Assembly (NCBI GenBank): GCA_001704575.1
Contig: MCAW01000001.1
Location: forward strand, 78,008 to 142,007
DNA: 64,000 nt
Reading direction: 5' to 3'
Origin: Methylophilales bacterium LSUCC0135
Lineage (GTDB): Bacteria; Pseudomonadota; Gammaproteobacteria; Burkholderiales; Methylophilaceae
Within the stretch, counting starts at the first letter, position 1; each line of letters opens with the position of its first letter. Position numbers and translations under genes: made by a program. Positions 2,553 through 61,311 of the stretch are shown here, piece by piece. The notes under the pieces are model-generated. The model did no database searches. It saw only the letters and a list, made by a program, of their open reading frames with translations, and was not told the DNA's origin.

Positions 2553-3434
2553 TTAAATGAGCTCTTCTTCCAGCGCCATGATGGCTTCGTGTAATTTGAT
2601 CAGTCGTTGTGCAGCGTTGATGTGATGGTTCTCCACCAGCTTGTCGTTGACAACAACCGTGCCGCGTCCTGCGTCGTTTGCTTCTTTCAGTGCCTTGATA
2701 ATGAGCTTTGCATTGGCAACTTCGGCTGCCTTGGGCGTGTAGGCATCATTGCAATAGGCAATCTGTGCGGGATGCACCAGTGATTTGCCGTCCATGCCCA
2801 TGTCGCGGCCTAGCCGGCATGCATACTCAAAGGAATGCATGTTCTTGAAATCGCTGGTGATACCGTCTATCACGCCCCTGCCATAAGCGCGCGCCGCCAG
2901 AATCACCATTGACAGCGAGGTGAGGATGGCAGAGCGTTCATGCGTGACATGGGCATGCATCTGCGATATCAGGTCCGAGGTGGCCATTACCATGCAATTG
3001 ACGCGATTGGATGCGGCCGCGATCTCTTTTGAATTCAATACTGCAATCGGGCTTTCGATCATCAGCATCATGGGCATGTGGCTGCCGCCGGCCTCATCCA
3101 GATATTGCTGGGCCTTCAGCACATCGTCGCGCGATTCGATATTGGGGAACAGAATCGCATCGGCACCGATATTGGCCACCGCCTTGATGTCGTCCAGTCC
3201 CCATTCGGAATCCAGATTGTTGACGCGCACGACGACTTCGCGTTTGCCGTAGCCGCCTTCCTTGACCGACTGCACCACATTGGCCCTGGACTCTTCCTTG
3301 GCGGCAACAAGAATCGGGTCGCCCAAATCGAGAATGACCGAATCGGCGGCGAGGGTGCGTGCGCGATCCAGATAGTGTTTGTTGCAGCCCGGTACATAAA
3401 GCATGGATCGTCTGGGGCGGATGTGATGTTCCAT
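2553..3434 (-). CDS. CitE-type CoA-ester lyase/thioesterase B
   Basis: First gene of the minus-strand operon, 293 residues, close to the length of citramalyl-CoA lyase or malyl-CoA thioesterase (Mcl2) types. Seen: N-terminal RRSMLYVPGC, Arg70, metal ligand Glu127 in MIESP, Asp154 in TSDL and a C-terminal HPAQI segment. The usual DLED acidic motif reads DLGD (36-39), so one conserved Glu is replaced by Gly. Candidate reactions are citramalyl-CoA cleavage to acetyl-CoA + pyruvate, or malyl-CoA hydrolysis to malate; the sequence does not decide. The promoter should lie in the 175-base gap shared with divergent gntR. Confidence 0.75.
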   Translation of the reverse strand: MEHHIRPRRSMLYVPGCNKHYLDRARTLAADSVILDLGDPILVAAKEESRANVVQSVKEGGYGKREVVVRVNNLDSEWGLDDIKAVANIGADAILFPNIESRDDVLKAQQYLDEAGGSHMPMMLMIESPIAVLNSKEIAAASNRVNCMVMATSDLISQMHAHVTHERSAILTSLSMVILAARAYGRGVIDGITSDFKNMHSFEYACRLGRDMGMDGKSLVHPAQIAYCNDAYTPKAAEVANAKLIIKALKEANDAGRGTVVVNDKLVENHHINAAQRLIKLHEAIMALEEELI

Positions 3435-3494
3435 AGCGAATTACTTCAGTAATGATCTTGAATCGATTATATAGACGGCTTTCTTTTAGTGTCA

Positions 3495-3520
3495 ACATAA
3501 ATCTTATGTCTTATATAAGA
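3495..3520. promoter_or_regulatory. Overlapping palindromes in the divergent gntR/CitE gap (candidate operators)
   Basis: The AT-rich gap 3435-3609 contains ACATAA-N3-TTATGT at 3495-3509 and the perfect palindrome TCTTATATAAGA at 3509-3520. An outer AGTGT/ACACT pair lies at 3488-3531. A GntR/HutC regulator is encoded immediately to the right, so these are the natural candidates for its binding sites controlling both operons. Binding is inferred. Confidence 0.5.
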
Positions 3521-3609
3521 TATAAAACACTAGACTATTTTTTTATGCCATGTTATAAATTCTCAACGGCTGTTTTTGCGGTTTGTAAAAGCAGAATCGA
3601 ATTTGATGG

Positions 3610-4356
3610 ATGTCTGAAAAAATGGATAAACAACTGGTTTCTCCGAGCTACCGGCCTTTATATGAGCAGATCAAGGTGATGATTACGCAGAGCCTGATCG
3701 CCGGCGAATGGCGCCCCGGAGAAGCAATCCCGAGTGAATTTGAACTGGCTGCGCGATACAAGGTGAGCCAGGGGACGGTGCGCAAGGCTATTGATAGTCT
3801 GTCTGCCGAAAACATTCTGATACGCCGTCAGGGCAAGGGCACCTTTGTTGCCACCCACAATGCCGATGTGATCAAGCTGCGGTTCTTGCGCCTGACCTCG
3901 GTGACCGGTCAGAAAGAGTTGTTGCAGAATCAATTCATCTCCTGTGAAAAAGGCAAGGCCAATGCTTACATGGCCAAAACCCTGCAAATAAAAGCAGGTG
4001 CCTCAACGATTGAAATCAAACGCTTGTTGACCTTCTCCGGCAGACCGCTGATTTATGACCAGATCATCGTTCCTGCCGCGCCGTTCAAGGGTTTGAAGGG
4101 CGCAAAGGTGGAAGAGTGGAACGGTTCGATGTACAGCATGTACGAGTCGGTCTTTGGTGTGCGCATGATCCGTGCGGAAGAGCGCCTCAAGGCGGTTGGC
4201 GCAGATCGCGAAACGGCGAACGCTTTAGGTTTGAAAGAGGGATTCCCCTTGCTAAGTGTGGAGCGGGTTTCCTTTACTTATGGTGACAAGCCGATGGAAT
4301 GGCGCCTGGGTTTGTGTCTCACTGATGATCACCACTATCTCAGTGAATTGGAGTAG
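3610..4356 (+). CDS. GntR-family (HutC/UTRA) transcriptional regulator
   Basis: 248 residues: an N-terminal winged helix (about 14-78; IPSEFELAARYKVSQGTVRKA holds the recognition helix) and a C-terminal UTRA effector domain (about 95-245). HutC-type regulators usually sense a small metabolite of the pathway they control. It sits between the divergent CitE-mch-prpB operon and the malic enzyme-sdh-fum-acnB operon, so it likely controls one or both. The start could be 3610 or the second ATG at 3622; no strong ribosome binding site decides. Confidence 0.88.
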   Translation: MSEKMDKQLVSPSYRPLYEQIKVMITQSLIAGEWRPGEAIPSEFELAARYKVSQGTVRKAIDSLSAENILIRRQGKGTFVATHNADVIKLRFLRLTSVTGQKELLQNQFISCEKGKANAYMAKTLQIKAGASTIEIKRLLTFSGRPLIYDQIIVPAAPFKGLKGAKVEEWNGSMYSMYESVFGVRMIRAEERLKAVGADRETANALGLKEGFPLLSVERVSFTYGDKPMEWRLGLCLTDDHHYLSELE

Positions 4357-4409
4357 TGATGCAGAACCCAGGCTCGGAAACGCATGATCAATGTGATCGG
4401 AAATGACAA

Positions 4410-5600
4410 ATGGATGATTTGAAAAAACGCGCGCTCGATTATCACCAGTTCCCGGTGCCCGGCAAACTCAGTGTGGAGTCGTCGAAGCCTTGCGCGACAC
4501 AGGATGATCTCTCACTGGCCTACACGCCGGGCGTTGCCGAGCCGGTGCGTGAAATTCATGCGGATCCGGCTACGGCTTATCAATATACGAATAAGGGTAA
4601 TCTGGTTGCTGTGATTACAGACGGTACGGCCGTGCTGGGTTTGGGCAATATGGGGGCACTCGCCAGCAAGCCGGTGATGGAAGGCAAGGCGGTGTTGTTC
4701 AAGCGCTTTGCCGGTATTGATGTGTTCGATATTGAAGTCAATGCGAAGACGCCAGATGAATTTATTGAAACTGTGGTGAATATCGCGCCAACCTTTGGCG
4801 GCATCAATCTTGAGGATATTGCGGCACCACATTGCTTTTATATTGAAAACGAATTAAAAAATCTTCTGGACATTCCGGTTTTTCACGACGATCAGCACGG
4901 TACGGCAGTCATCGTTGCGGCAGCATTGCTCAATGCGCTGGAGATTCAGTCCAAGTCTTTGCCAAGGGCAAAAATCGTCTTTCTGGGCGCAGGTGCTGCC
5001 GGTTGTTCATGTGCCAAACTGCTCAAGCTGATGGGCGCCACGGATATCACCATGGTGGACAAGAGCGGGGTGATTGATACGGATCGTGCAGATCTGCATG
5101 ACAATAACCGTGAGCTGGCGGTCGCACCCTCTGCCGTGAAAACCATCGATGCTGCAATGGAAGGTGCCGATGTCTTTATCGGAGTTTCGGCCAAAAATGC
5201 CCTGAACAGCGATCTGATCAGAAAGATGGCGAAGAATCCGGTGATATTTGCACTGGCCAATCCCGATCCGGAAGTGCTGCCAAGCGTGGCACATGCCATA
5301 CGCGATGATATTGTCATGGCCACCGGACGCAGCGACTTTCCCAACCAGGTCAACAATGCGCTGTGCTTTCCCTATCTGTTCCGCGGCGCGCTGGATGCAA
5401 AGGCAAAACAGATCACGGAAAAGATGAAAGTGGCGGCTGCGCACGCACTCAGTGCACTGGCGCGCGAACCAGTGCCGCAAGCGGTTCTGCAAGCCTACAA
5501 CCTGCGGTCTTTGCAGTTCGGCAAGGATTACATCATTCCCAAACCTTTTGATCCGCGCTTGCTTGAGCGGGTTTCCAAAGCAGTTGCCGGGGCAGCCTGA
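4410..5600 (+). CDS. Malic enzyme, short form (oxaloacetate-decarboxylating)
   Basis: Oxidatively decarboxylates malate to pyruvate with NAD(P). At 396 residues it has the malic domain and NAD-binding domain but lacks the C-terminal phosphotransacetylase domain of MaeB. Seen: catalytic YTP (38-40), metal-binding NLEDI (133-137), DDQHGT (160-165) and the Rossmann motif GAGAAG (193-198). It is 53 bases after gntR and only 2 bases before sdhC, taking the place that malate dehydrogenase often occupies next to sdh in betaproteobacteria. Cofactor preference cannot be read with confidence. Confidence 0.9.
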   Translation: MDDLKKRALDYHQFPVPGKLSVESSKPCATQDDLSLAYTPGVAEPVREIHADPATAYQYTNKGNLVAVITDGTAVLGLGNMGALASKPVMEGKAVLFKRFAGIDVFDIEVNAKTPDEFIETVVNIAPTFGGINLEDIAAPHCFYIENELKNLLDIPVFHDDQHGTAVIVAAALLNALEIQSKSLPRAKIVFLGAGAAGCSCAKLLKLMGATDITMVDKSGVIDTDRADLHDNNRELAVAPSAVKTIDAAMEGADVFIGVSAKNALNSDLIRKMAKNPVIFALANPDPEVLPSVAHAIRDDIVMATGRSDFPNQVNNALCFPYLFRGALDAKAKQITEKMKVAAAHALSALAREPVPQAVLQAYNLRSLQFGKDYIIPKPFDPRLLERVSKAVAGAA

Positions 5601-5602
5601 TC

Positions 5603-5989
5603 ATGCCGTCAACACAACAGCGCAGACGGCCGAAGAATCTGAATCTGTTCACGATTCGTCTGCCGGTGAATGCCATCATTTCCATCATGCACCGCATGAG
5701 CGGCATGGTGCTGTTTTTAATCCTGCCCGCCATGCTCTGGGCATTGCATCAATCCGTGGCGAGCGAAATCAGCTATCTGGCGCTGGCCGGGTTGCTCAAT
5801 CATTGGCTGCCGAAAACAGTCCTGGTGGTCCTGTCCTGGGCCTTTTTCCACCACTTCTATGCAGGCTTGCGCCACCTGGCAATGGATGTGCACTGGATGA
5901 AAAGTTTGCCCAAGGCTCGATTCTCAAGCCGTCTGGTGTTGTGCCTGGATGTGCTGTCGGTCACGCTGTTGGCCGCCATGATCTGGTGA
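5603..5989 (+). CDS. sdhC: Succinate dehydrogenase cytochrome b556 subunit SdhC
   Basis: 128-residue membrane anchor with three hydrophobic helices. HRMSGMVLFL near residues 31-40 is the family quinone-side signature, and FFHHFYAGLRHLAMD contains the haem-region histidines. It binds haem b and ubiquinone with SdhD and anchors SdhAB to the cytoplasmic membrane. The start follows the malic enzyme stop by two bases, so translation is probably coupled. Confidence 0.93.
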   Translation: MPSTQQRRRPKNLNLFTIRLPVNAIISIMHRMSGMVLFLILPAMLWALHQSVASEISYLALAGLLNHWLPKTVLVVLSWAFFHHFYAGLRHLAMDVHWMKSLPKARFSSRLVLCLDVLSVTLLAAMIW

Positions 5990-6002
5990 GGATGCTGCCA
6001 TC

Positions 6003-6350
6003 ATGATGATCGAACTTCTAACAAAAAAATATCCGGGCATGCGCCTTTGGCTGGCGCAGCGCTTGTCTGCAGTAGTGATGGCGGTTTATCTGCTGGTATT
6101 TGCCTTGCTGCTGATCGTAAAACAGCCGGCAGGTTATGAGGCCTGGATGAACCTGATGTCGCCATGGTGGTGGCGTCTGTTCACCCTGCTGTTTTTTGTC
6201 AGTCTGGTAATGCATGCCTGGCTTGGTATCCGTGATGTGTTCAAGGATTACATTTTTAACCCCGGATTGCGTGCAATTTTTCAGCTGCTTGTTGATGTGT
6301 TGCTGATGATTTATCTGGGTTGGACCATCGTAATTTTATGGAGTATGTAA
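6003..6350 (+). CDS. sdhD: Succinate dehydrogenase membrane anchor subunit SdhD
   Basis: 115 residues, three membrane helices (about 16-38, 55-80, 88-112). [18 protein letters not shown] carries the conserved His and Arg-Asp pair of SdhD. Tandem ATG codons at 6003 and 6006 both work; 13 bases separate it from sdhC. Forms the anchor of complex II with SdhC. Confidence 0.92.
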
Positions 6351-6360
6351 GGTTGTGACT

Positions 6361-8115
6361 ATGCAAAAACATCAATTCGATGCAGTCGTGGTTGGTGGCG
6401 GCGGGGCCGGCCTACGAGCTGCGTTGCAGCTGGCCGAAGCCGGGGTGAAAGTCGCGGTGCTGTCCAAGGTTTTTCCAACCCGCTCGCATACCGTTGCCGC
6501 ACAGGGCGGCATCGCGGCCGCGCTCGGTAATGTGTCAGGCGACAACTGGCTTTGGCACATGTACGACACCATCAAGGGCTCTGACTACCTTGGCGATCAG
6601 GATGCCATCGAGTTCATGTGTAAAAACGCTGCCAAGGCGATTATCGAGCTTGAGCATTTCGGCATGCCGTTTGACCGGCTGGAAAACGGCAGGATATTTC
6701 AGCGGCCATTCGGCGGCATGACGCAGAATTACGGCGAAAAACCGATTTCGCGTACCTGTGCCGTGGCTGACAGAACCGGCCACGCCATGCTGCATACCTT
6801 GTATCAGCGCAATATTCGCGCCAATACACAGTTCTTTGTCGAGTGGTTTGCACTGGATCTGATCCGCGATACGGAAGGTGACGTGCTCGGTGTGATAGCG
6901 CTCGAAATCGAAACCGGCGATATCCATGTGCTGCAGGCGAAAGCCACCTTGCTTGCGACCGGCGGCGCAGGGCGTATTTTTCAGGCTAGCACCAATGCCT
7001 TCATCAACACCGGCGACGGTCTCGGCATGGTCGCGCGCGCCGGTCTGCCTCTGCAGGACATGGAGTTCTGGCAGTTTCACCCGACCGGCGTGTTGCATGC
7101 CGGCGTTCTGATTACCGAAGGTGTACGTGGCGAGGGCGGTTATCTGGTCAACGCCGATGGAGAACGCTTTATGGAGTGTTATGCGCCCAATGCCAAGGAT
7201 CTGGCCAGCCGGGATGTGGTTTCGCGTGCCATTGCGACAGAAATCAAGGAAGGCCGCGGCGTCGGCAAGCACAAGGATGCGGTATACCTCAAGTTGGATC
7301 ATCTGGGCGAGGAGCTGATCAGCAAGCGTTTGCCAGGTATTCGTGAAATTGCCAAAACCTTTGCCAATGCCGACCCGATTCAGGATCCGATTCCGGTCGT
7401 GCCTACCGCACATTACATGATGGGCGGCATTCCTACCAATCTGGACGGTCAGGTGGTGGAATACCGTAACGATGTCGAGAACAAGGTCAACGGCTTGTAT
7501 GCGGTAGGCGAGTGTGCTTGCGTTTCGGTGCATGGTGCGAATCGTCTGGGTTCCAACTCGCTGTTGGATCTGGTGGTGTTCGGCAAGGCGGCCGGCGACA
7601 AAATGGTGAGCGACATCAGGGCGGCAGGTACGCACAAAGCACTACCGGCGGATGCTGCAGACATGACGCTGGCCCGCATTGCCCGGCTCGATCATCAAAC
7701 TGCCGGCGAGAGCGTGACCGAGGTGGGCGCCGCCATGCGCCAGTCCATGCAGCGTCATTGCGGCGTGTTCAGGTTTCCCGAGTTGCTTGAAGAGGGCGTC
7801 GGCACTATCGACGCGATTGCACAGCGCGCACAACATCTTCAGATCAAGGATAAAAGCAAGGTGTTCAACACGGCAAGAGTGGAAGCCCTCGAACTCGATA
7901 ACCTGATTGAAGTGGCCTGTGCCACCATGCATGCCGCCAATAACCGCAAGGAAAGTCGCGGAGCACATGCGCGTGAGGATCATGCCGGACGAGACGATGA
8001 AAACTGGCTCAGTCACTCGCTCTACTACAAAAACGGGCATCGGCTGGTTTACAAGCCGGTTCGCTTGCAGCCGCTGACGGTTGAATCATTTGCTCCCAAA
8101 GCCAGAACTTATTGA
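6361..8115 (+). CDS. sdhA: Succinate dehydrogenase flavoprotein subunit SdhA
   Basis: Catalytic subunit oxidising succinate to fumarate. The N-terminal GGGGAG FAD-binding loop (12-17) is followed by [13 protein letters not shown], where His43 is the site of covalent FAD. Later FWQFHPTGV and RGEGG segments form the dicarboxylate site. I chose ATG 6361 because AAGG at 6349-6352 sits 8 bases before it; a GTG at 6355 is too close. Length 584 residues is normal for the family. Confidence 0.96.
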
Positions 8116-46604: not shown

Positions 46605-48026
46605 TCAGGAATCCTGACGTCTCAAGCCGCCAAGCAGTGCGGCGACCGGGGCTTTGGAGCGGCCGGAGGCGTGACGGTTGACAGGTGGTCTGACGGTTGC
46701 AGTGCCGGATGGTTCGTAGGGTTTGTCGAACCAGGGGTCGCTGCTTTTCTTTTTCGGCAGGCTCCGTGACGGTTGGCTGATCGATTCACCGCGTGTGCTA
46801 TTGCGATCTTCACGTTTTTCGCGCGGTTGTGCTTCACGGCCCGAGCGGCTGCCGGTAATGCCCGGCAACTTGTCGATCTGCCGTTTGATCAACTTTTCGA
46901 TCTCTGCCAGGTATTTTTCCTCTTCCGGCGATACCAGCGAAATAGCTGTTCCAGACGCGCCAGCGCGGCCGGTGCGGCCGATTCTGTGTACGTAATCTTC
47001 CGGTGCCGACGGTATTTCGTAGTTGATCACCATCGGCAACTGGTCGATATCGAGGCCACGCGCGGCGACATCGGTGGCGATCAGCACAGCTACCTTGCCC
47101 TGCTTGAAGGCATCCAGCGCTTCCATGCGTTCCTTCTGGCTTTTGTCACCGTGAATCGCATCGGCCAGCAGGCCTTCACGTTGCAGTTGTTTGGCCAGCC
47201 GGCTGGCGGTCAGCTTGGTTTTGGTAAAGACAATGACCTGGGAAGCGTCGCTGCCGCGCAGAATGTCGGTGAGTTGGGCGTGCTTGTTGGCTTGCTCGAC
47301 CAGATAGACTTTTTGCGTGACGTTTTCGGCAGTTGCGTTACTGCGTGCTACTTCGATCAGCGTCGGGTTGTGCAGGAAAGCCTCGGAAAGCTTCTTGATT
47401 TCATTGGAGAAGGTTGCCGAGAACATCAGGTTCTGACGCTGTTTTGGCAGCAGCGCCAGAATCCGTTTGAGGTCCGGCATGAAACCCATGTCCAGCATGC
47501 GGTCGGCTTCATCCAGAATCAGCATCTGCACCTGGCCCAGTTGCAGCGTGCGCTGCTCGACGTGGTCCAGCAGGCGGCCGGGAGTCGCTACCAGAATTTC
47601 CACGCCGCGCATCAGGCTCGGTGTTTGCGTTTTGATGTCGACACCGCCGAACACGACCAGCGAACGCAGATTGGTGTACTTGGCGTAGGCCTTCACACTT
47701 TCCTCGACCTGAATCGCCAGTTCACGCGTAGGCGTCAGAATCAGGGCGCGTATGGGATGCCGCGCCGGTGAGGCGCTGTTGCTGGCAAGCGGCAATATTT
47801 TTTGCAGCAGCGGCAATGCAAATGCTGCCGTCTTGCCGGTACCGGTTTGCGCTCCGGCCATCAGGTCGCCGCCGGCCAGGGCAAGCGGAATCGCCTGCGC
47901 CTGGATCGGCGTCGGTTTGGTATAGCCGGACTCACTTAGCGCCTTGAGTATTTCAGGCGCCAGTCCCAATGATTCGAACGTGGTCTGTGCTTGAGTCACT
48001 TCGTTCCCTGTAGTTGCCGTCATCAT
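46605..48026 (-). CDS. rhlE: DEAD-box RNA helicase, RhlE-like (copy 1)
   Basis: 473 residues. Q-motif/Walker A GAQTGTGKTAAF, PTRELA, DEAD box LDEADRMLDMGFMPD, SAT, and HRIGRTGRAG in the second RecA domain. Basic low-complexity C-terminal tail (about 375-473). Unwinds short RNA duplexes in ribosome or mRNA processing. Its start is immediately next to the stop of the second helicase gene, so it is the downstream gene of a two-gene operon. Confidence 0.92.
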   Translation of the reverse strand: MMTATTGNEVTQAQTTFESLGLAPEILKALSESGYTKPTPIQAQAIPLALAGGDLMAGAQTGTGKTAAFALPLLQKILPLASNSASPARHPIRALILTPTRELAIQVEESVKAYAKYTNLRSLVVFGGVDIKTQTPSLMRGVEILVATPGRLLDHVEQRTLQLGQVQMLILDEADRMLDMGFMPDLKRILALLPKQRQNLMFSATFSNEIKKLSEAFLHNPTLIEVARSNATAENVTQKVYLVEQANKHAQLTDILRGSDASQVIVFTKTKLTASRLAKQLQREGLLADAIHGDKSQKERMEALDAFKQGKVAVLIATDVAARGLDIDQLPMVINYEIPSAPEDYVHRIGRTGRAGASGTAISLVSPEEEKYLAEIEKLIKRQIDKLPGITGSRSGREAQPREKREDRNSTRGESISQPSRSLPKKKSSDPWFDKPYEPSGTATVRPPVNRHASGRSKAPVAALLGGLRRQDS

Positions 48027-49424
48027 TTATGCGAAGGTGCGCGGGCGTCGGGCGCCTTCGGTACGTTTCTTGTCGGAGAAGTTGCCACGGCCGGCATCCT
48101 GACGTTGGCCGTTACCGGCCGGCTTGCGGTCGCCGAAACCCTGACGTGGATGCGCGCTGCGGTTGTCGTCGCTGCGGAAACCGGAGGCGTTGCTGTTGCG
48201 GCCCTTGTAGCCGCCGCCGGGCTTCTTGCCGGAACGCGGGCGGTCGTTCGGACCATCGGTTCTCGGTGCCGGACGCTTGGGTTCAAAACCGGCGATCACG
48301 GTGGCTTCCATACGTTGGCCGGTGAACTGTTCGATCTTGCGCACCTGATAGCGGTCGGCGTGCGATGCGAACGAAACGGCGATACCGGTCTTGCCGGCGC
48401 GGCCGGTACGGCCGATACGGTGGACGTAATCCTCGGCGAATTTCGGCAGATCGTAGTTGATGACATGCGTGATGCCGGCAACGTCGATGCCGCGAGCTGC
48501 GACGTCAGTAGCGACCAGCACCCTGACATCGCCGTGGCGCAGTTTGGTCAGCGTGCGGTTGCGCGCGCCCTGGGTCATATCGCCATGCAAGGCAGCAGTC
48601 TTGTGGCCGGCAGCGTAGAGGTCTTCGGCCAGCAGGTCGGCGTGACGTTTGGTCGATGTGAAGACGATGGCCTGATTGACGTCGGCGTCGATCAGCAGAT
48701 GTTCCAGCAGCTTGTTCTTGTGGTTCATGTCGTCCACGAAGTGCAGGCGCTGCTCAATGTTGGCGTGTTTTTCCTTTTGTGCGGCAACCTGGATGGTCTT
48801 GGGGTTGCGCAGGATCTGACGCGCGATATTGCCGATGTTGCCGTCCAGCGTGGCCGAGAACAGCAATGTCTGGCGTTCGGCCGGCAGAGCGTTGCAGATG
48901 CGTTCGACATCGGGCATGAAACCCATGTCCAGCATGCGGTCGGCTTCGTCCAGAATCAGCATCTGCAGGCGCGACATGTCGATGCGGCCGCGTTCCATGT
49001 GGTCCAGCAGACGCCCGGGCGTGGCAACCAGAATATCCAGCGGTTGGCTCAGCAGCTTGTTCTGCAACGGGTAGGGCATGCCGCCGACAATGCTGACAGT
49101 GCGGGCGCGGATGAATTTGCCGTATTTGCGTGCAGCTTCGTTGACCTGAGCCGCCAGTTCGCGTGTCGGTGTCAGCACCAGAATCCGCGGGCCGCGGCTT
49201 CTGGATGGGTGTGGGGTTGCCAGCAGATTCAATGCGGGCAAGGTGAATGCGGCGGTTTTGCCGGTACCGGTCTGGGCCGAGGCCATCAGGTCGTGGCCGG
49301 CCAGGACTTCAGGAATCGCCTGCGCCTGGATCGGAGTTGGGGTCGCATAGCCGGCTTCTTCCAAAGCGCGGAGGATGGACGGATGCAAATTGAGCTGTTC
49401 AAAACTGGTGTTTTCTGATGACAC
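48027..49424 (-). CDS. DEAD-box RNA helicase, RhlE-like (copy 2)
   Basis: 465 residues with the same motif order as its neighbour: ASAQTGTGKTAAF, PTRELA, LDEADRMLDMGFMPD, SATLDG, HRIGRTGRAG. The Gly/Arg/Asn-rich tail (about 370-465; RSGKKPGGGYKGR) is an RNA-binding extension. The two are diverged tandem paralogues. A long leader precedes it (49425-49778 is shared with typA), as is common for cold-induced helicases (inference). Confidence 0.92.
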   Translation of the reverse strand: MSSENTSFEQLNLHPSILRALEEAGYATPTPIQAQAIPEVLAGHDLMASAQTGTGKTAAFTLPALNLLATPHPSRSRGPRILVLTPTRELAAQVNEAARKYGKFIRARTVSIVGGMPYPLQNKLLSQPLDILVATPGRLLDHMERGRIDMSRLQMLILDEADRMLDMGFMPDVERICNALPAERQTLLFSATLDGNIGNIARQILRNPKTIQVAAQKEKHANIEQRLHFVDDMNHKNKLLEHLLIDADVNQAIVFTSTKRHADLLAEDLYAAGHKTAALHGDMTQGARNRTLTKLRHGDVRVLVATDVAARGIDVAGITHVINYDLPKFAEDYVHRIGRTGRAGKTGIAVSFASHADRYQVRKIEQFTGQRMEATVIAGFEPKRPAPRTDGPNDRPRSGKKPGGGYKGRNSNASGFRSDDNRSAHPRQGFGDRKPAGNGQRQDAGRGNFSDKKRTEGARRPRTFA

Positions 49425-51887: not shown

Positions 51888-52163
51888 ATGGACTACCCTC
51901 TCTTTTTCGCCTCCCAGCTTGGAAAGCACCTGCGCTCGTTGCGCAAGGCGCGCGGCTTGACGCAGACGCAGCTCGCAGAAAAACTTGGCGTCGTGCAATC
52001 GCGGGTCGCAGCCATTGAACGTAAGCCAGAGATGATGAGCGTGGCCGGCCTGTTCGAAGTATTAGCGGCCCTCGATGTTCAGGTCGTGTTGCGCGATTCG
52101 CGGCCAAGCCCGTTGCCTGCAGGCCTTGTAGCGCCCAACGCAGGCTCGAAGGGGGTCTGGTAA
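51888..52163 (+). CDS. hipB: HipB-like antitoxin
   Basis: 91 residues. XRE-type helix-turn-helix (about 9-68; LRKARGLTQTQLAEKLGVVQSRVAAIER) and a short tail. Represses the operon and holds HipA. AAGGA 9 bases before ATG 51888. Stop TAA shares a base with the hipA ATG (TAATG). Confidence 0.92.
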   Translation: MDYPLFFASQLGKHLRSLRKARGLTQTQLAEKLGVVQSRVAAIERKPEMMSVAGLFEVLAALDVQVVLRDSRPSPLPAGLVAPNAGSKGVW

Positions 52164-53494
52164 TGCCCGAGCTTTGGATCTGGATGAACGGTGAGTTTGT
52201 CGGCCGCTGGTACCGCGGCCGCACCGGGCACCACCGATTTGTCTATGAAGAGTCGTGGTTATCCTCATCAAGGACTCGCCCGCTCTCGCTGTCAATGCCC
52301 ATCGGCGCTGACCGGACCGTCGAGGGCGTCACGGTCAGCAACTTCTTTGACAATCTGCTACCAGATAGCGAAGCGATCAGGAAGCGGGTGGCTACCCGGT
52401 TCAAGACCGGATCGACCGAGCCTTTCTACTTGCTCCAGGCCATTGGTCGCGACTGCGTTGGCGCAATCCAGATTCTGCCCGCTGGCGCGCATCCAGAAGG
52501 CTTTGACCGTCTGGACTACGATGTGCTGAGCGATGCAGATGTCGAGCGCATCCTGCAAAGCACCCCGGCCGAGCCAGGGCTGGGCGCACGGGGCGATGGA
52601 GATGCGGACTTCCGCATCTCCATCGCTGGTGCCCAAGAGAAGACGGCCCTGTTGCTTATTGGGAAGCAATGGTGCCGCCCGAAGGGCGCCACGCCCACCA
52701 CACACATCCTGAAGCTGCCGCTTGGTCTTGTGGGGGGGCGGAAGCTGGACCTGAGTCATTCGGTAGAAAACGAGTGGCTCTGCGCCAAGATCTTGCGTGA
52801 GATGGGTTTTCCCGTCGCGCATTCCGAAATCGTTGAGTTCGGAACCCAGAAGGCCTTGGCGGTAGGGCGTTTCGACCGCGAGTTCGCGGGCAATGGGACC
52901 TGGATCGCGCGCCTGCCGCAGGAGGACTTCTGCCAGGTGGCGGGCGTGGCCCCGGGCCAGAAGTATGAAGCGGACGGCGGCCCTGGCATGGCGGTCATTC
53001 TGAGCGTACTGGCAAGCAGCCAGGCCCCGATCGAGGACACCATGGCTTTTCTGCGCGCACAACTGGCGTTCTGGCTCCTCGCGGCCATTGATGGGCACGC
53101 CAAAAACTTCTCAATCTTTATGCTACCCGGCGGCCAGTATCGCCTGACCCCGCTGTATGACGTCCTGTCGGCTTGGCCCGTTATCGGCTCTGGCGCGGGC
53201 AAGCTTCCCAAGCAGAAAGCCGGGTTGGCCATGGCCGTGCATTCGAAGAATGCGCACTACAAGCTTGACGAGATTCAGCCACGTCACTGGCAGCAACTCG
53301 CAATCAAGTGTAACGCACGAAACGCTTGGCCGGCCTTGGTGGATATGGTGCGTAGCGCAGTGGTGGCGACAGAACGGGCGCTGATGGAATTGCCGCCCGG
53401 GTTCCCAACGCAGATTGCCGATGCGATTCTCTCGGGCGTGTGCAAGCAGCAGACAAAATTCCTTCGCGCACTCGATGGCTCCAAGGTTGGTTAG
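52163..53494 (+). CDS. hipA: HipA serine/threonine kinase toxin
   Basis: 443 residues. The activation segment RISIAGAQEKTALL places Ser153 where E. coli HipA Ser150 is autophosphorylated. The couple_HipA N-terminal domain, HILKLP, VGRFDR, the catalytic AIDGHAKNFSIF (Asp) and metal-binding LYDVLSAWP follow. HipA phosphorylates glutamyl-tRNA synthetase, causing persistence. All key residues are present, so the toxin looks active. Sits as an island between typA and the M48 operon. Confidence 0.94.
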   Translation: MPELWIWMNGEFVGRWYRGRTGHHRFVYEESWLSSSRTRPLSLSMPIGADRTVEGVTVSNFFDNLLPDSEAIRKRVATRFKTGSTEPFYLLQAIGRDCVGAIQILPAGAHPEGFDRLDYDVLSDADVERILQSTPAEPGLGARGDGDADFRISIAGAQEKTALLLIGKQWCRPKGATPTTHILKLPLGLVGGRKLDLSHSVENEWLCAKILREMGFPVAHSEIVEFGTQKALAVGRFDREFAGNGTWIARLPQEDFCQVAGVAPGQKYEADGGPGMAVILSVLASSQAPIEDTMAFLRAQLAFWLLAAIDGHAKNFSIFMLPGGQYRLTPLYDVLSAWPVIGSGAGKLPKQKAGLAMAVHSKNAHYKLDEIQPRHWQQLAIKCNARNAWPALVDMVRSAVVATERALMELPPGFPTQIADAILSGVCKQQTKFLRALDGSKVG

Positions 53495-53537
53495 GAGCCT
53501 TTTGGGGTCAACTGCGTAGTCACGCCAGCGCCCAGAA

Positions 53538-53571
53538 AAAGACCCACAATCTGCAAGGCTTTGTGGGTCTT
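53538..53571. terminator. Bidirectional hairpin between hipA and the M48 gene
   Basis: AAGACCCACAA, about 10-base loop, TTGTGGGTCTT, with an A-run on the left, which is a T-run for the minus-strand M48 operon. Confidence 0.75.
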
Positions 53572-53656
53572 CCAGTTGTCGCCCCTAAGGGCTTGTCATC
53601 TACAGTTTAACGGAACGGTAAGGGCAATCTCCGGGTTTTAATTGCCGAAACATTTG

Positions 53657-54544
53657 TTATTTCAACTTATAAAAGCGCTCCGGCAGTGTTTTACCCGCAG
53701 CTGCGTTATCCAGCTTGTTGCCGATGGCATCGCCCAGTTTCGCCAGGCGTTCGTCCGGGTGCGGGTGGGTCTTGTACAGCAGGGTGAGGCCGCCTTCGCT
53801 GTTGCTGGTGGCGGAGATCGATTGCAATACTTCCGGCAAGCCGTAGCTATCGTAACCGGCACGCGTGGCGAGCACGACACCGTCGCGGTCGGCTTCGTAC
53901 TCGGCGTTCTTGTCGAGGCCGCGCGCCATGATTTCGGCGCCGTTGCCAATGACCATGTCCAGCTTCTGGTCGCCCTTGCTGACCTTCTCGCCGAGCAGTC
54001 CTGCGCCCATGCTGAGCAACTGCTGTTTCTGGATGACTTTCAGATGGTGCTTGCGGACGACATGACCGATCTCGTGTGCCAGTACGCCTGCCAGTTGGGC
54101 TTCGTTCTGCAGTTTTCGGTAGAGGCCTTTGGTCAGCACGATATAACCGCCGGGAGCGGCGAAAGCATTGATGGCTTCGCTTTCAATGACGCCGAAACGC
54201 CAGGGCAGATCGGCACGCTCACTCTGACTGGCGACCCAGCGGCCGACCTGGTTCACGTAATTCTGCAACGCCGCATCGTCAACCAGCGGCGCGGCACCGA
54301 GCAGGTTGCCGGTAATTTCGCGGCCCAGCTGTATTTCTTCTTCCTTCGAAGGGTTCTTCCAGTTGAAGGCCGGCGGTTTATTGCCGGTGGTCGACTCGTT
54401 CGCCGCTTGACCGGCAGGAAGATCGCTGCTGTCGATGCCGCCTTTTTCAGCGGCGTCCTTGACCAGGTCTTTCAAATTCAACGCCTGCGCGGGCAGGGCG
54501 ATGGCCAAGGCAGCCATCAGCATCAATATCCTTGTACGCATCAT
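53657..54544 (-). CDS. M48-family periplasmic metallopeptidase
   Basis: 295 residues. Signal peptide ending about AQA (21). Zinc site HEIGH (His157, Glu158, His161) and third ligand in YEADRDGV; AFAAPGGYIVLTKGL is typical of the BepA/LoiP group, which handle outer-membrane protein quality. It is the last of three coupled genes (CHASE2, SH3, M48; ATGA overlap with the SH3 gene). Intact, in contrast to the M48 pseudogene at 19763. Confidence 0.92.
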   Translation of the reverse strand: MMRTRILMLMAALAIALPAQALNLKDLVKDAAEKGGIDSSDLPAGQAANESTTGNKPPAFNWKNPSKEEEIQLGREITGNLLGAAPLVDDAALQNYVNQVGRWVASQSERADLPWRFGVIESEAINAFAAPGGYIVLTKGLYRKLQNEAQLAGVLAHEIGHVVRKHHLKVIQKQQLLSMGAGLLGEKVSKGDQKLDMVIGNGAEIMARGLDKNAEYEADRDGVVLATRAGYDSYGLPEVLQSISATSNSEGGLTLLYKTHPHPDERLAKLGDAIGNKLDNAAAGKTLPERFYKLK

Positions 54545-55053
54545 TTTGCTCCCTGTGGTGTAGGCAGATAGTTGAACTTGATGGCTTTCAGCCCGCCTGC
54601 GTCAGCAAACTGCTGGCCCTGGCTTGCGCTCAGGGTGTGCGATTCGAGTTTGCTGATTTGCGCTTCACTGAATTCGGCGCTTTTCAAGTCCTGTTCACTG
54701 AGGCCGCGCACGCCGGTGGTGGCAACCACCTGGCCGGTGCCGGCACGGCCGCTGGCAACGCTGAGTGCGCCGGAGGTCGAGCCGTTGGCTGTCGAGGTGC
54801 CGCGTTTGACCGAGAGCAGCCGAACCCAGCCGGTGCTTTTGGCGGTCTTGACCTTGAGCCAGGCACCCTGTTTGCCAAGAATCTGCACCTTCTCGTTCTT
54901 GACGAAGCTGCCGACGGTTTTGGCGTCGGCATAAGGTTCTGCGCGCAGGCTGTCGGCCTTGAGCGCGATGCCGGCTTCCGCTGCCAGGGACGCTGGCGCG
55001 GAAATCTGTAATGCGGCAAACAATAGCAGTGCTGCAGATAATGATTTAGCCAT
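54541..55053 (-). CDS. Secreted bacterial SH3-domain protein
   Basis: 170 residues. Signal peptide ends about LAA (25), then an SH3b-type domain (about 27-85; LRAEPYADAKTVGSFVKNEK, GWVRLLSVKRG), then a Ser/Gly-rich linker and a C-terminal helical stretch. SH3b domains bind peptidoglycan or peptides. The ATG at 55053 overlaps the CHASE2 gene stop as TAATG and its own stop overlaps the M48 start, so the three are translationally coupled. Function unknown. Confidence 0.85.
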   Translation of the reverse strand: MAKSLSAALLLFAALQISAPASLAAEAGIALKADSLRAEPYADAKTVGSFVKNEKVQILGKQGAWLKVKTAKSTGWVRLLSVKRGTSTANGSTSGALSVASGRAGTGQVVATTGVRGLSEQDLKSAEFSEAQISKLESHTLSASQGQQFADAGGLKAIKFNYLPTPQGAK

Positions 55054-56753
55054 TAATTGGGTTCTCCCGCTTCCGTGTGTTCGAGTTTGATGATGGATTG
55101 CGCGAACAGGGTGCGCCACTGGTTTGCTGCCGGTGATGCAGCCTGCAGCACGCCGTCATGCATGGTGTAACGCACCGAGGTCTCTGTCGGCAGGCCAAGG
55201 CTGCTGATGATTTCCGGCAACTGGCGGCCAAGCTGCTGTGCATCTGCATGGGCTTTTTCCGCGTAATCTTCTTTGGTTTCCGAATAGGTCCAGCTCACCA
55301 CAACCATATCGCCGAAAAGGCCCCAGATGCCACCTTGCGTACTCCTGAGTGTGTCGATATTGCTCGGTGTGCGGCTGGCGAGCTCGATTCTGCGTTTCAA
55401 TTTTTTGAGTATGGCATCACCCAAAGGTTCTTTGCTCTCGACCAGCACCGGCATGATCAGCACGTGCGTGCCAGCCGCATCGGCCTTGACGCCGAAAGCC
55501 AGCCAGCGCTGCAGGGCGCGGTCGGTGGCCAGCGCATAGATTTTCGCCACGCTGAAGTAGATGACGGCCCAGGTGATGGGGCCGGTGAAGTCGAAGTAGG
55601 CGTTGGTCAGGTTGATGGCAATGTAAGAAATTGCCAGCAAGCCGACCTGACTGAAGCTGAACAGTTTGATTAGTTTGTCGCGATCGACTCTGGTATAAAA
55701 GGCGGCTGCCGTCAGCCAGATCAGCATCAGGCTGACCAGCACATAAGGCGCCGCCCCGCGCCAGACTTTCATGGTGTCGCCGTGCTTGACGTTGTCGATG
55801 GCGGTGGCGAGGATTTCGACGCCGGGGTGGTTCTTCGCCATCGCTGTTGCCTTGAGGTCGAACAGGCTGGGCGCGGTTGAGCCGATGATGACGATCTTGC
55901 CGGTGAACTCATCCTGCGGCCGGGTTTTTTTCCGGCTGCTCATGTCGTGCATGACATCGCTGAAACTGGCGTATTGATAACTGAAGGGTTTGCCGCGCCA
56001 GTTGATCAGAAAGCGCTCGTCTTCCGGGGGCGCCAGGTCCAGGTTGGTTGCAACGGTCAGCGGCAGCGACGGGATGCGCCAACCGTAATCGTCGCGGTAG
56101 AGCCGGTATTCGCGCACGATGCCGTCGGGGTCAGGGTAAATGTTGTGGGTGCCTAGTCTGCCGGAGTCGATGGCAGCCTGAAAATGCGGCAATACCATGG
56201 CGATCGTCGCATCGGCAGACGCCTCAACGTAAGGCGCAGGCTTGATCGCCGGCACCATGGCGGCGGTGATCTCGCTGAGCGCATCGTATTCTTCCGGCAG
56301 CCGCAGGAAGGGGAAGAACGTGTTCCGGCTTTCGGCAATCACCTCGTTGAAATAGGCGTCGCTGTCGGGATTGTAGATATCGGCATCGCTGAACAGGATG
56401 TCGAACACCACGGCCTGCGGATTCTGAGCTTCGATGTTCTGCACGAATTCGCCGAACACCTGGCGTGGCCAGGGCCAGCGGCCGTATTCTTCAGCCATGG
56501 CAGCAAGACTGGCCTCGTTGATGTCGATGATGACGATGTCCTTGTCCGGCGGCTGTACCACCACGCGGCTACGCATCATGAAGTCAAAGGCCTTCTGCCG
56601 CATGTTTTCACCGACATGCAGCAGACTGGCATCGAGTAGCACGAACAGCGTCAGCAATGCCGCCAAATAAAGATAGAAATTATTCTGCAGGCGCCTTGTG
56701 ATGTTGGCCAGCCATTGGCCGATGAGAAATTTGAGTTTGGTCACATCGATCAT
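55053..56753 (-). CDS. CHASE2-domain membrane protein without recognised output domain
   Basis: 566 residues: one N-terminal membrane helix (about 24-46), extracytoplasmic CHASE2 domain (about 47-325; VVIIDINEASLAAMAEEYGRW, INWRGKPFSYQYAS, GKIVIIGSTAPSLFDLKAT), three helices (335-410), and a 150-residue cytoplasmic tail. CHASE2 sensors usually end in a kinase, cyclase or phosphatase; I see none of these motifs here. It leads the SH3-M48 operon. Confidence 0.85.
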   Translation of the reverse strand: MIDVTKLKFLIGQWLANITRRLQNNFYLYLAALLTLFVLLDASLLHVGENMRQKAFDFMMRSRVVVQPPDKDIVIIDINEASLAAMAEEYGRWPWPRQVFGEFVQNIEAQNPQAVVFDILFSDADIYNPDSDAYFNEVIAESRNTFFPFLRLPEEYDALSEITAAMVPAIKPAPYVEASADATIAMVLPHFQAAIDSGRLGTHNIYPDPDGIVREYRLYRDDYGWRIPSLPLTVATNLDLAPPEDERFLINWRGKPFSYQYASFSDVMHDMSSRKKTRPQDEFTGKIVIIGSTAPSLFDLKATAMAKNHPGVEILATAIDNVKHGDTMKVWRGAAPYVLVSLMLIWLTAAAFYTRVDRDKLIKLFSFSQVGLLAISYIAINLTNAYFDFTGPITWAVIYFSVAKIYALATDRALQRWLAFGVKADAAGTHVLIMPVLVESKEPLGDAILKKLKRRIELASRTPSNIDTLRSTQGGIWGLFGDMVVVSWTYSETKEDYAEKAHADAQQLGRQLPEIISSLGLPTETSVRYTMHDGVLQAASPAANQWRTLFAQSIIKLEHTEAGEPN

Positions 56754-59133: not shown

Positions 59134-61311
59134 ATGCTGAAAACACTGACCCCCGCGCAATTGACCCCCGCCATAGATGCTGAAGCGCTCGGATTTTCAA
59201 CCACTGCAGCGCTGGCTGGCCAGGCCGGACCGCATGCGGGCTGGATAGGCCAGACAGATGCTGAGGCAGCGGCACGCTTCGGCCTTGGCGTGCATCATCC
59301 GGGTTTTCACCTGATCGTGATCGGTGAGCCCGGTTGCGGCAGAACTTCGCTGATGCTGAAACTGATGTACGAATATGCTGCGAAACTGCCGGTACCGCGT
59401 GATCTAGTTTATCTGCACAATTTCGATAATCCCGACAAGCCGCTGGCCTTGCGTGTCGGCGCCGGTTCCGGTGCCAGGCTGCGGCAGTCGCTGGATCAGT
59501 TTGTGCGGCAGCTGGCGAGAAACATGCCCGCGATAACCGGCGATGCGGTGGCGGTCGAAGCCTTTCTCGAATTGCAGTTTGGCGCCATCAGGCAAGGATT
59601 GCAGATCGAAAATGGCGAGCTGAGAAAGCTGGAAGCCTACCTGATCAATATCAGGCAGGACATTTTCGACAATCTGGAAGTCTTTCAGCAGCCGGTCAAC
59701 ATCGCACAGGCGGCGTCATCGCTGGGCCTGTCTCAGCCAGGGGCTGGTGAACCGGGATTGAATCCAGACAACGAAGGCCTGCTGGAATCCTATCTGCTGC
59801 GTTTCAGGGCCAATCTGCTGGTCGATCACCGTCAGCAGATTGCCGCGCCGGTGATTTACGATGACGACCCCGGTTTTCAGAGTCTGTTCGGCTCCTTCGA
59901 GTCAGGCTCCGAGCAGGCCAGCAGTCTGCCTGAATTCATGCGCCTGCGTGCCGGAAACCTTTTGCGTGCCGATGGCGGCATGCTGATGCTGCATTTGCGC
60001 GACATTCTCAACGACCAGCAAAACGGTCCGCAGATTCTGGAAAAACTGCATCGCTTCCTGCGCAACGGCCGCGTGCAGATCGAGGAATCCGTTACCCATG
60101 CAGGCCATATTGCCAGCACGCATGCGGTTTCCGACCCGGTGCCGGTTCAGGTGCGTCTGGTGCTGATCGCCACGCGGGAAGAGTTCTACCGGTTGCAGGA
60201 CGAAGCGGAGGATTTCGTCCGCTTTTTCAACGCCAAAGTCGATTTTGCCGATGATTTCGAAGCCAATCCGGAAATCTACCGGGCACTGTCGGCCTATGTT
60301 GCCGGGCGTTGCGAGCATTTTTCATTGCCGCACCTGACTGCCGCAGCCATGGCTGTGTTGCTGCAGGCGATGCATAGAAAGGTCGAGGACCAGAAACGCG
60401 TCAGCAGCACGCTGGCCGAATTGCAACAGCTGCTGCTCGCGGCCGCCACCGAAGTTGCAACGCGACAGACGCAGCCGGGCAGCCAGCCGCTGATAGAAGC
60501 GTGCGACGTCAATGCGGCGATAGCGGCGCGCTACAGGCGTCATCGCAGCCCCGAGATGCAGTTGCTGCGTTCGATTGTCGATGGCGATTTGCTCATCCGC
60601 CTTGAAGGGCGGCAGACCGGCCAGATCAACGGCCTGACGCATATCGACCTCGGCGATGCCGGTTTCGGATCGCCGGTACGTATTTCGGCGCGCTGTCATG
60701 CGGGTGAAGAAGGCGTCATCAATATCGACCGCGAGGTGGAAATGACCGGCCCCAATCATGACAAGGGCTTGTTCATCCTGCAAAGTTGGTTGTCCGCGAG
60801 CTTTGCCAAACTGACGCCACTTTCGCTCAATGCTTCGCTGGTGTTCGAGCAGGAATATCATGGGGTCGAGGGCGACTCTGCCTCCTGCGCTGAGCTTTTC
60901 GCGTTGATCTCGGCCATTTCCGGCATTGCGCTACCGCAAGGCATCGCAGTCACCGGAGCGATGAACCAGCACGGCGAGGTGATGGCCATCGGCGGTGTCA
61001 ACGAGAAAATCGAAGGTTATTTCCGCGTGTGTCAGGCGGTCGGGCTGAACGGCGCGCAGGGCGTCATGATTCCCGAACGCAATGCCTCGCATCTGGTGCT
61101 CAACGACGAAGTTGTGGCTGCGGTGAAGGAAGGAAAGTTTCATATATACACCTTCGGGCATGTGCTTGAAGGTCTGACATTCCTGACCGGACTTCCCGCC
61201 GGTGAACCCGATGAGTCGAGTGACTATGCGCCTGACAGCGTCATGGGGCATGTGCATAAAGCGCTGCAGAATCTGCGCAAGATCCATGACAGCAACAAAC
61301 CGGATGAGTGA
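59134..61311 (+). CDS. Lon-like ATP-dependent protease (AAA_32 + Lon C-terminal)
   Basis: 725 residues. P-loop GEPGCGRT (64-71) has Arg70 where Lys is canonical. Coiled middle, then AAA+ core with GGMLMLHLRDIL. Lon serine-protease domain with catalytic Ser582 in EGDSAS and Lys625 in GGVNEKIEG, 43 residues apart as in Lon. Family: LonB/YcbZ group. Clear of neighbours; Hsp15 follows closely. Confidence 0.9.
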   Translation: MLKTLTPAQLTPAIDAEALGFSTTAALAGQAGPHAGWIGQTDAEAAARFGLGVHHPGFHLIVIGEPGCGRTSLMLKLMYEYAAKLPVPRDLVYLHNFDNPDKPLALRVGAGSGARLRQSLDQFVRQLARNMPAITGDAVAVEAFLELQFGAIRQGLQIENGELRKLEAYLINIRQDIFDNLEVFQQPVNIAQAASSLGLSQPGAGEPGLNPDNEGLLESYLLRFRANLLVDHRQQIAAPVIYDDDPGFQSLFGSFESGSEQASSLPEFMRLRAGNLLRADGGMLMLHLRDILNDQQNGPQILEKLHRFLRNGRVQIEESVTHAGHIASTHAVSDPVPVQVRLVLIATREEFYRLQDEAEDFVRFFNAKVDFADDFEANPEIYRALSAYVAGRCEHFSLPHLTAAAMAVLLQAMHRKVEDQKRVSSTLAELQQLLLAAATEVATRQTQPGSQPLIEACDVNAAIAARYRRHRSPEMQLLRSIVDGDLLIRLEGRQTGQINGLTHIDLGDAGFGSPVRISARCHAGEEGVINIDREVEMTGPNHDKGLFILQSWLSASFAKLTPLSLNASLVFEQEYHGVEGDSASCAELFALISAISGIALPQGIAVTGAMNQHGEVMAIGGVNEKIEGYFRVCQAVGLNGAQGVMIPERNASHLVLNDEVVAAVKEGKFHIYTFGHVLEGLTFLTGLPAGEPDESSDYAPDSVMGHVHKALQNLRKIHDSNKPDE

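Follow-up and report, generated by a model that had tools for sequence, protein, structure and literature searches.

Among the described receptors with a CHASE2 domain, the cyclases CyaD1, CyaD2 and CyaK of Sinorhizobium meliloti respond to a protein signal by way of the outer-membrane barrel NsrA, according to the available text of PMC13001267; neither the word "SH3" nor the word "protease" occurs in the main text of that paper as available. The signals of CHASE2 domains were stated to be not known in the accessible part of a Burkholderia paper of 2016 (PMC5192318). In the LapD/LapG system, as set out in the accessible part of PMC3032553, a receptor with degenerate cyclase and phosphodiesterase domains is paired with the protease LapG, and for M48 proteases a study of BepA has described HPX4R as an active-site plug motif and proposed that it autoregulates the family (PMC7950410, available text). 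Here, we describe an operon encoding a CHASE2 receptor, an SH3 protein and an M48 metalloprotease in a 64,000-nucleotide stretch of contig MCAW01000001.1 from Methylophilales bacterium LSUCC0135, referred to below as the window. With moderate confidence, we regard it as a receptor-protease module derived from a CHASE2 receptor cyclase, in which the cyclase has become a pseudo-enzyme and an older periplasmic SH3-M48 arm has been kept. Accordingly rated as a variant of the CHASE2 receptor cyclases, the cluster has no earlier description in the titles and abstract openings of the open-licence PubMed Central papers that were found by the searches.

A conserved three-gene operon

The genes lie on the minus strand in the order CHASE2, SH3 and M48, with the following features:

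55053..56753, minus strand: CHASE2 receptor gene, 566 amino acids (Pfam PF05226, E 4.9e-51, residues 36-347)
55053..55544, minus strand: cytoplasmic domain of the CHASE2 receptor, residues 404-566 (AlphaFold, VIA-align, column conservation)
54541..55053, minus strand: SH3 protein gene (PF08239 SH3_3, 39.3 bits against a cut-off of 27)
53657..54544, minus strand: M48 metalloprotease gene, 295 amino acids (Pfam PF01435 Peptidase_M48, 108.5 bits against a cut-off of 20.3)
53532..53576, minus strand: terminator-like hairpin with a U-run, 3' of the M48 gene (fold -18.3 kcal/mol)

The initial annotation had proposed a CHASE2-SH3-M48 operon at 53657-56753, and this proposal is borne out by Pfam matches for all three products and by gene overlaps that can be read in the sequence: the CHASE2 stop codon and the SH3 start codon share 1 base (TAATG), and the SH3 stop codon and the M48 start codon share 4 bases (ATGA). 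The SH3 gene starts with ATG at 55053 and stops at 54541, and a GTG-started open reading frame of 192 amino acids is over-extended. Because rmuC is divergent upstream and a hipBA-like pair is convergent downstream, the operon consists of exactly these three genes. The hairpin (z -3.37, with none of 200 shuffles equally stable) is probably the operon end, and a promoter scan returned 0 sites. The 2.1-Mb genome has only this one CHASE2 gene.

Conservation of the triple, a survey of which the initial annotation had suggested, was examined in the 80 best named relatives, which comprise Methylophilaceae, the nearest ones, as well as Gallionellaceae, Sulfuricella, Nitrotoga and others. Identical order and strand are found in 77 of the 80, and in the remaining three (L090, L104 and L109) the sequence breaks off at the contig edge 672, 27 and 522 bases past CHASE2, respectively, which excludes a chance arrangement. 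An overlap of 1-4 bases is seen between the CHASE2 and SH3 genes of 46 among 77 relatives and between the SH3 and M48 genes of 53 among 72, counts for which the nearest possible start codon was taken for each gene, a choice biased toward overlap. In a sample of the order, the CHASE2 type of the window occurs in 27 of 399 genomes and the triple is adjacent in 24 of these; the other three (G029, G284 and G313), all of one genus, show neither an SH3 nor an M48 gene within the sequence that was fetched for their CHASE2 locus and carry the SH3-M48 pair elsewhere in the genome. Thus, the three-gene operon is real and conserved, and the three genes are far from being rarely together elsewhere.

Two loci deserve separate mention. 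At L043 (4265-5994; genome G006, counted among the 24), the CHASE2 gene is disrupted by a stop and a break of the frame, whereas the reading frames of SH3 and M48 are open; this genome is 68% complete, and the break may be an assembly error. At L218 (4264-7480; G752), a pseudo-cyclase triple is found in a genome from a different class of the phylum, possibly by transfer.

The SH3 protein has an N-terminal hydrophobic segment, presumably a signal peptide, followed by a bacterial SH3_3 domain and a C-terminal tail that is conserved with a TTGVRGLSE-like motif in an alignment of 13 relatives; a PDB search with the family gave only weak SH3 matches (best E 0.014). The M48 protease also begins with a hydrophobic segment likely to be a signal peptide and contains the motifs HEIGH, EADRDG and HPHPDER. 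HEXXH, the downstream E-x-D motif that includes the Glu ligand and HPX4R are all kept in 75 of 75 M48 relatives. The window protein matches the protease domain of BepA (6sar/6ait) with an E of about 8e-27; since this match ends at residue 270 of 295, there is no room for a TPR domain of the BepA type, and Pfam gives no TPR match for the window protein. The M48 protein is probably a latent periplasmic protease.

The cytoplasmic domain of the receptor

In the AlphaFold model of the full-length receptor (mean pLDDT 84.3), helices are formed by residues 4-45, 334-353, 358-383 and 390-420, so that one helix precedes CHASE2 and three follow it. From sequence and model, the predicted architecture is a first transmembrane helix, a periplasmic CHASE2 domain, three transmembrane helices and a cytoplasmic domain, and the topology, the signal peptides and the periplasmic location of the partners are to be taken as predictions of this kind. 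The model was built on a family alignment of 58 rows (the window plus 51 plus 6), which excludes L127 (partial), the sequences dropped by an 85% identity filter, which retained 59 of 79, and L090, L104, L109, L115, L128, L141, L153 and L158, which were left off by hand. A PDB profile search with the CHASE2 family gave a sole match, at E 0.94.

The initial annotation described the receptor as lacking any recognised output domain. For Pfam this stands: none of the 58 family C-termini has a convincing match, PF00211 is absent among the matches of all 58 members at E up to 10, and no HAMP, GGDEF or EAL match to the window receptor is found. For the fold it does not, as the C-terminus is predicted to be a nucleotide-cyclase-like domain without a catalytic motif. 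Modeled alone, residues 404-566 give a pLDDT of 85.0 and a pTM of 0.81, with elements arranged strand-helix-strand-strand-helix-strand-strand-helix and the fold region spanning about residues 425-560. Almost all VIA-align rows are GGDEF domains, class III cyclases or type III CRISPR complexes. The full model aligns with GGDEF 3ezu at Z 9.8 (126 residues, 3.1 A) and with human soluble adenylyl cyclase 4usu at Z 9.4 (129 residues, 4.1 A), and the domain alone aligns with GGDEF 4urq at Z 10.4 (129 residues, 3.1 A) and with adenylyl cyclase 5d0r at Z 9.7 (117 residues, 3.6 A); for adenylyl cyclases overall, Z is 8-9.7 over about 107-129 residues. In profile comparison with hhalign, the family C-terminus matches the sister cyclases introduced below with E 0.0041 (probability 8.3%) and a set of 21 cyclases with E 0.018 (probability 2.6%), a score that was reached by 1 of 200 column shuffles and is to be compared with 13.3 for the reversed profile against 21.5 for the real one. 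This alignment sets LFGDMVVVSW over FIGDAIMAFW, the GDAIMAFW strand of cyclases; in global mode, hhalign found no meaningful match between the C-terminus and cyclases.

Class III cyclases have two metal-binding Asp residues. The position of the strand-1 Asp is occupied mainly by Pro or Leu in the 58 members, with no Asp among the residues listed. The GG[DE]EF motif is absent, and the corresponding hairpin reads GxQxGxWxLF in most members. A family signature can be drawn around G471, Q473, G475, W477, L479, F480, W488, D504, W546 and R547 (the window has Ser at 471), and 16 columns within residues 425-560 reach 80% identity over the 58 sequences, eight of them in the strand 2-3 hairpin at 471-488, as a ranking of columns rather than a statistical test. 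For the C-terminus, the ratio of nonsynonymous to synonymous substitution rates (dN/dS) lies at 0.04-0.23 across the 10 of 12 hand-picked pairs that yielded a value, higher than that of the rest of the receptor in all 10 yet far below 1. As these values indicate purifying selection, the cytoplasmic domain appears from sequence comparison to be a constrained pseudo-enzyme and not a decaying relic.

Some other views of this C-terminus have been rejected. An output-less sensor is ruled out by the folded, constrained domain seen with AlphaFold and dN/dS, and relaxed selection by dN/dS. An active cyclase overlooked by Pfam is ruled out, at the level of sequence, by the scan of 58 members and the residue census, and an active GGDEF domain by the absence of its motif.

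The initial annotation spoke of a linkage without a kinase or cyclase. This is true of the CHASE2 protein itself and, within the two cyclase classes that were searched, of the entire host genome, which has no match to PF00211 (class III) or PF01295 (class I adenylate cyclase); class I adenylate cyclase is absent in eight of eight genomes tested. The genome encodes two proteins with a cyclic nucleotide monophosphate-binding domain, which says nothing on cyclic AMP. A further view is that the receptor, as a pseudo-cyclase, dimerises with a genuine class III cyclase and controls it in trans. In its favour, 19 of 26 genomes with a receptor of the window type contain one or more class III cyclases, and in 5 of the 26 a second SH3 gene lies beside a CHASE2-cyclase gene (M48 confirmed in three, L199, L200 and L202); the window genome and six others, however, have no PF00211 match. 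Trans-regulation as a general role is ruled out by the seven genomes without a class III cyclase, and we consider the view as a whole highly improbable.

Relationship to cyclase-type receptors

The SH3-M48 pair is not confined to the receptor type of the window. A profile of the SH3 protein, consisting of the SH3 domain and its conserved tail, matches 28 of 321 genomes screened in the class, and an M48 gene directly follows the SH3 gene at 27 of 27 fetched class loci and at eight of eight fetched loci of further matches in the phylum, which makes the pair the most constant part of the cluster. Upstream of the 27 class loci, a CHASE2 gene with a cyclase domain is found in 14 and one with another C-terminus in a single case (L160). 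A CHASE2 gene exists somewhere in 28 of 28 SH3-positive genomes, whereas 177 of all 321 have one (Fisher p 2e-8, without correction for kinship). Arrangements vary: L051 has its CHASE2 gene beside the pair but on the opposite strand, and, against a strict unit, the cyclase-type CHASE2 gene of L045 has no SH3-M48 pair in its 16-kb stretch. L219 (G043, 3368-6698) has the permuted order SH3, M48, CHASE2-cyclase on one strand, and in G480 (L193) the CHASE2 gene and the pair are unlinked.

This constancy, together with the match of M48 to the protease domain of BepA and the faster evolution of the receptor C-terminus in 10 of 10 computable pairs, would suit a role of the three proteins in envelope quality control, with CHASE2 serving chiefly as an anchor or scaffold for the SH3 protein and M48 and with no signalling by the C-terminus. 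A plain anchor, however, needs neither the near-invariant residues found over 58 sequences nor a dN/dS of 0.04-0.23, and we hold this explanation to be very unlikely.

The sister receptors, of about 610-630 amino acids, carry a PF00211 cyclase in four of four tested (E 4e-28 or better), and most of them precede the same SH3-M48 pair. Beside the pair, PF00211 is above the cut-off in L047, L048 and L050, others being matched by a profile of such domains, and cyclase-type CHASE2 receptors with the same pair are found in many other Gammaproteobacteria. In a tree of the CHASE2 region (48 rows; L191, L192, L148, L187, L044 and L043 left out as long, duplicate, truncated or broken), all 28 cyclase-less rows, namely 26 of the window type, L160 and L051, fall on one side of a branch with a support of 100/98.9; with the root placed, as was chosen, among the cyclase-type receptors, they form one clade. 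In the M48 tree, from which L040 and L045 were left out in addition, 24 cyclase-type and solo rows are split (97) from the M48 proteins of pseudo-cyclase loci, which do not strictly form a single clade (2 changes, weakly supported). At L160 and L193 (G707 and G480), the CHASE2 receptor ends in a divergent domain that is not a cyclase. The match of these two C-termini to the window type spans 117 columns (E 0.015, probability 3%, 0 of 200 shuffles), and L160, L193 and the window type have therefore probably inherited one altered domain.

Because the same pair adjoins receptors with a recognisable cyclase, SH3-M48 would predate the loss of the cyclase, and the simplest reading of the sequences is that catalysis was lost once, in a receptor that already had SH3-M48. 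For the same reason the pair did not originate as a substitute for an output, and the suggestion of the initial annotation that the protease could be the output is weakened to a mere possibility.

Several observations weigh against this derivation. The likeness to cyclases is a fold likeness common also to GGDEF and Cas10-type palms. In VIA-align, GGDEF rows score level with cyclase rows or slightly higher, and as rows within 1 Z count as ties, the two cannot be distinguished in this way. Foldseek alone puts SAM-AMP lyase, PII and eIF2-alpha chains above cyclases, so that the likeness stems in part from the widespread ferredoxin-like arrangement. That the C-terminus is homologous to class III cyclases is suggested by the modeled fold and by weak profile scores (hhalign probability 2.6-8.3%). 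Of the 58 members, 33 retain D482, at the position of the second metal-binding Asp. The root of the CHASE2 tree, placed with outside CHASE2 proteins, is weakly supported (64). Finally, 12 of the 27 class SH3-M48 loci, one of them (L167) cut by the contig end, have no CHASE2 gene within the fetched stretch, and SH3-M48 can thus work without an adjacent CHASE2 gene.

As for other genes around the operon, the convergent hipBA-type pair just after it (51888-53494, plus strand) encodes a helix-turn-helix protein and a HipA-like kinase (PF07804, PF13657). Two adjacent DEAD-box-like helicase open reading frames lie at 46605-49424 on the minus strand (the Pfam scan covered the second only), and a LonB/LonC-like AAA protease (PF13654, PF20437, PF05362) is encoded at 59134-61308 on the plus strand. 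Near the triple in L032 there are also similar helicase open reading frames and typA-like ones.

Direction of signalling and known systems

The favoured model is built on the conserved operon, the protease motifs, the kinship to cyclase-type receptors sharing the same partners, the lost cyclase pattern and purifying selection, from which we infer the periplasmic location, the physical contacts, the direction of signalling and the ligand. An outline is as follows: the inner-membrane receptor would expose CHASE2 to the periplasm, and its co-translated partners would be a small SH3 protein, which is exported, and an M48 protease of the periplasm that is probably latent. Where the relatives bear a cyclase, their receptor would produce a cyclic nucleotide, with SH3-M48 acting on its periplasmic side. 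In the window lineage, the catalytic residues would have been lost with the domain remaining folded and constrained, and because of this combination the receptor would most likely signal by binding a nucleotide or a protein, not by making cyclic AMP. SH3-M48 would most likely act on the signal side: the SH3 protein may position M48 either at the envelope or at the receptor, whose state may be set when an envelope substrate is processed.

The rival that we take most seriously, though it seems rather unlikely, is inside-out control of the LapD/LapG kind, in which the dead cyclase domain binds a cytoplasmic nucleotide or protein and gates or sequesters M48 via CHASE2, M48 being the output; it is a refinement of the proposal in the initial annotation. 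A cyclase-fold domain without catalytic residues, whose conservation is concentrated in the former active-site hairpin at 471-488, would suit such control, as would an operon-encoded periplasmic protease with the HPX4R plug in 75 of 75 relatives, and LapD with LapG offers a precedent. On the other hand, SH3-M48 is found as well with receptors whose cyclase is recognisable, which would make it older than the loss of the cyclase, and the pair occurs without a neighbouring CHASE2 gene. As Pfam gives no HAMP or EAL match, the working could be LapD/LapG-like, yet outside that family. Both directions fit the anatomy; the signal-side role of SH3-M48 is favoured because the pair already stood beside receptors whose cyclase is recognisable. 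An inside-out circuit of separate evolutionary origin, the second of its kind, with an ex-cyclase that reads a cytoplasmic nucleotide or protein and controls M48 via CHASE2 and an SH3 adaptor, is an idea that we regard as unlikely.

In either direction, the same periplasmic partners serve one CHASE2 receptor with a recognisable cyclase and another with a pseudo-cyclase, which provides a natural comparison for what CHASE2 senses and for whether M48 sits upstream or downstream of the receptor.

Compared with the CHASE2-class III adenylate or guanylate cyclases, the window shares the CHASE2 receptor, and the sister operons carry both a PF00211 cyclase and SH3-M48, whereas the window protein has neither a PF00211 match nor the cyclase residue pattern. 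With the M48 proteases BepA, LoiP and YcaL the window M48 shares the zinc-site motifs and the HPX4R active-site plug (motif as given in the available text of PMC7950410); as differences, at 295 amino acids it has no room for the TPR domain of BepA, and it adjoins an SH3 protein at the examined loci. The Burkholderia BiofilmReg operon resembles the locus in that a CHASE2 receptor, there a histidine kinase, is co-encoded with a LysM-FecR protein of a peptidoglycan-binding type (PMC5192318, accessible part), but its output is a histidine kinase with a response regulator, and neither M48 nor SH3 is seen in that part of the paper. LapD/LapG, as presented in the accessible part of PMC3032553, is alike in combining a membrane receptor that has a degenerate cyclase domain with a periplasmic protease; it differs in that the window receptor has no HAMP or EAL match, CHASE2 takes the place of the periplasmic domain of LapD, and the protease is an M48 metalloprotease.

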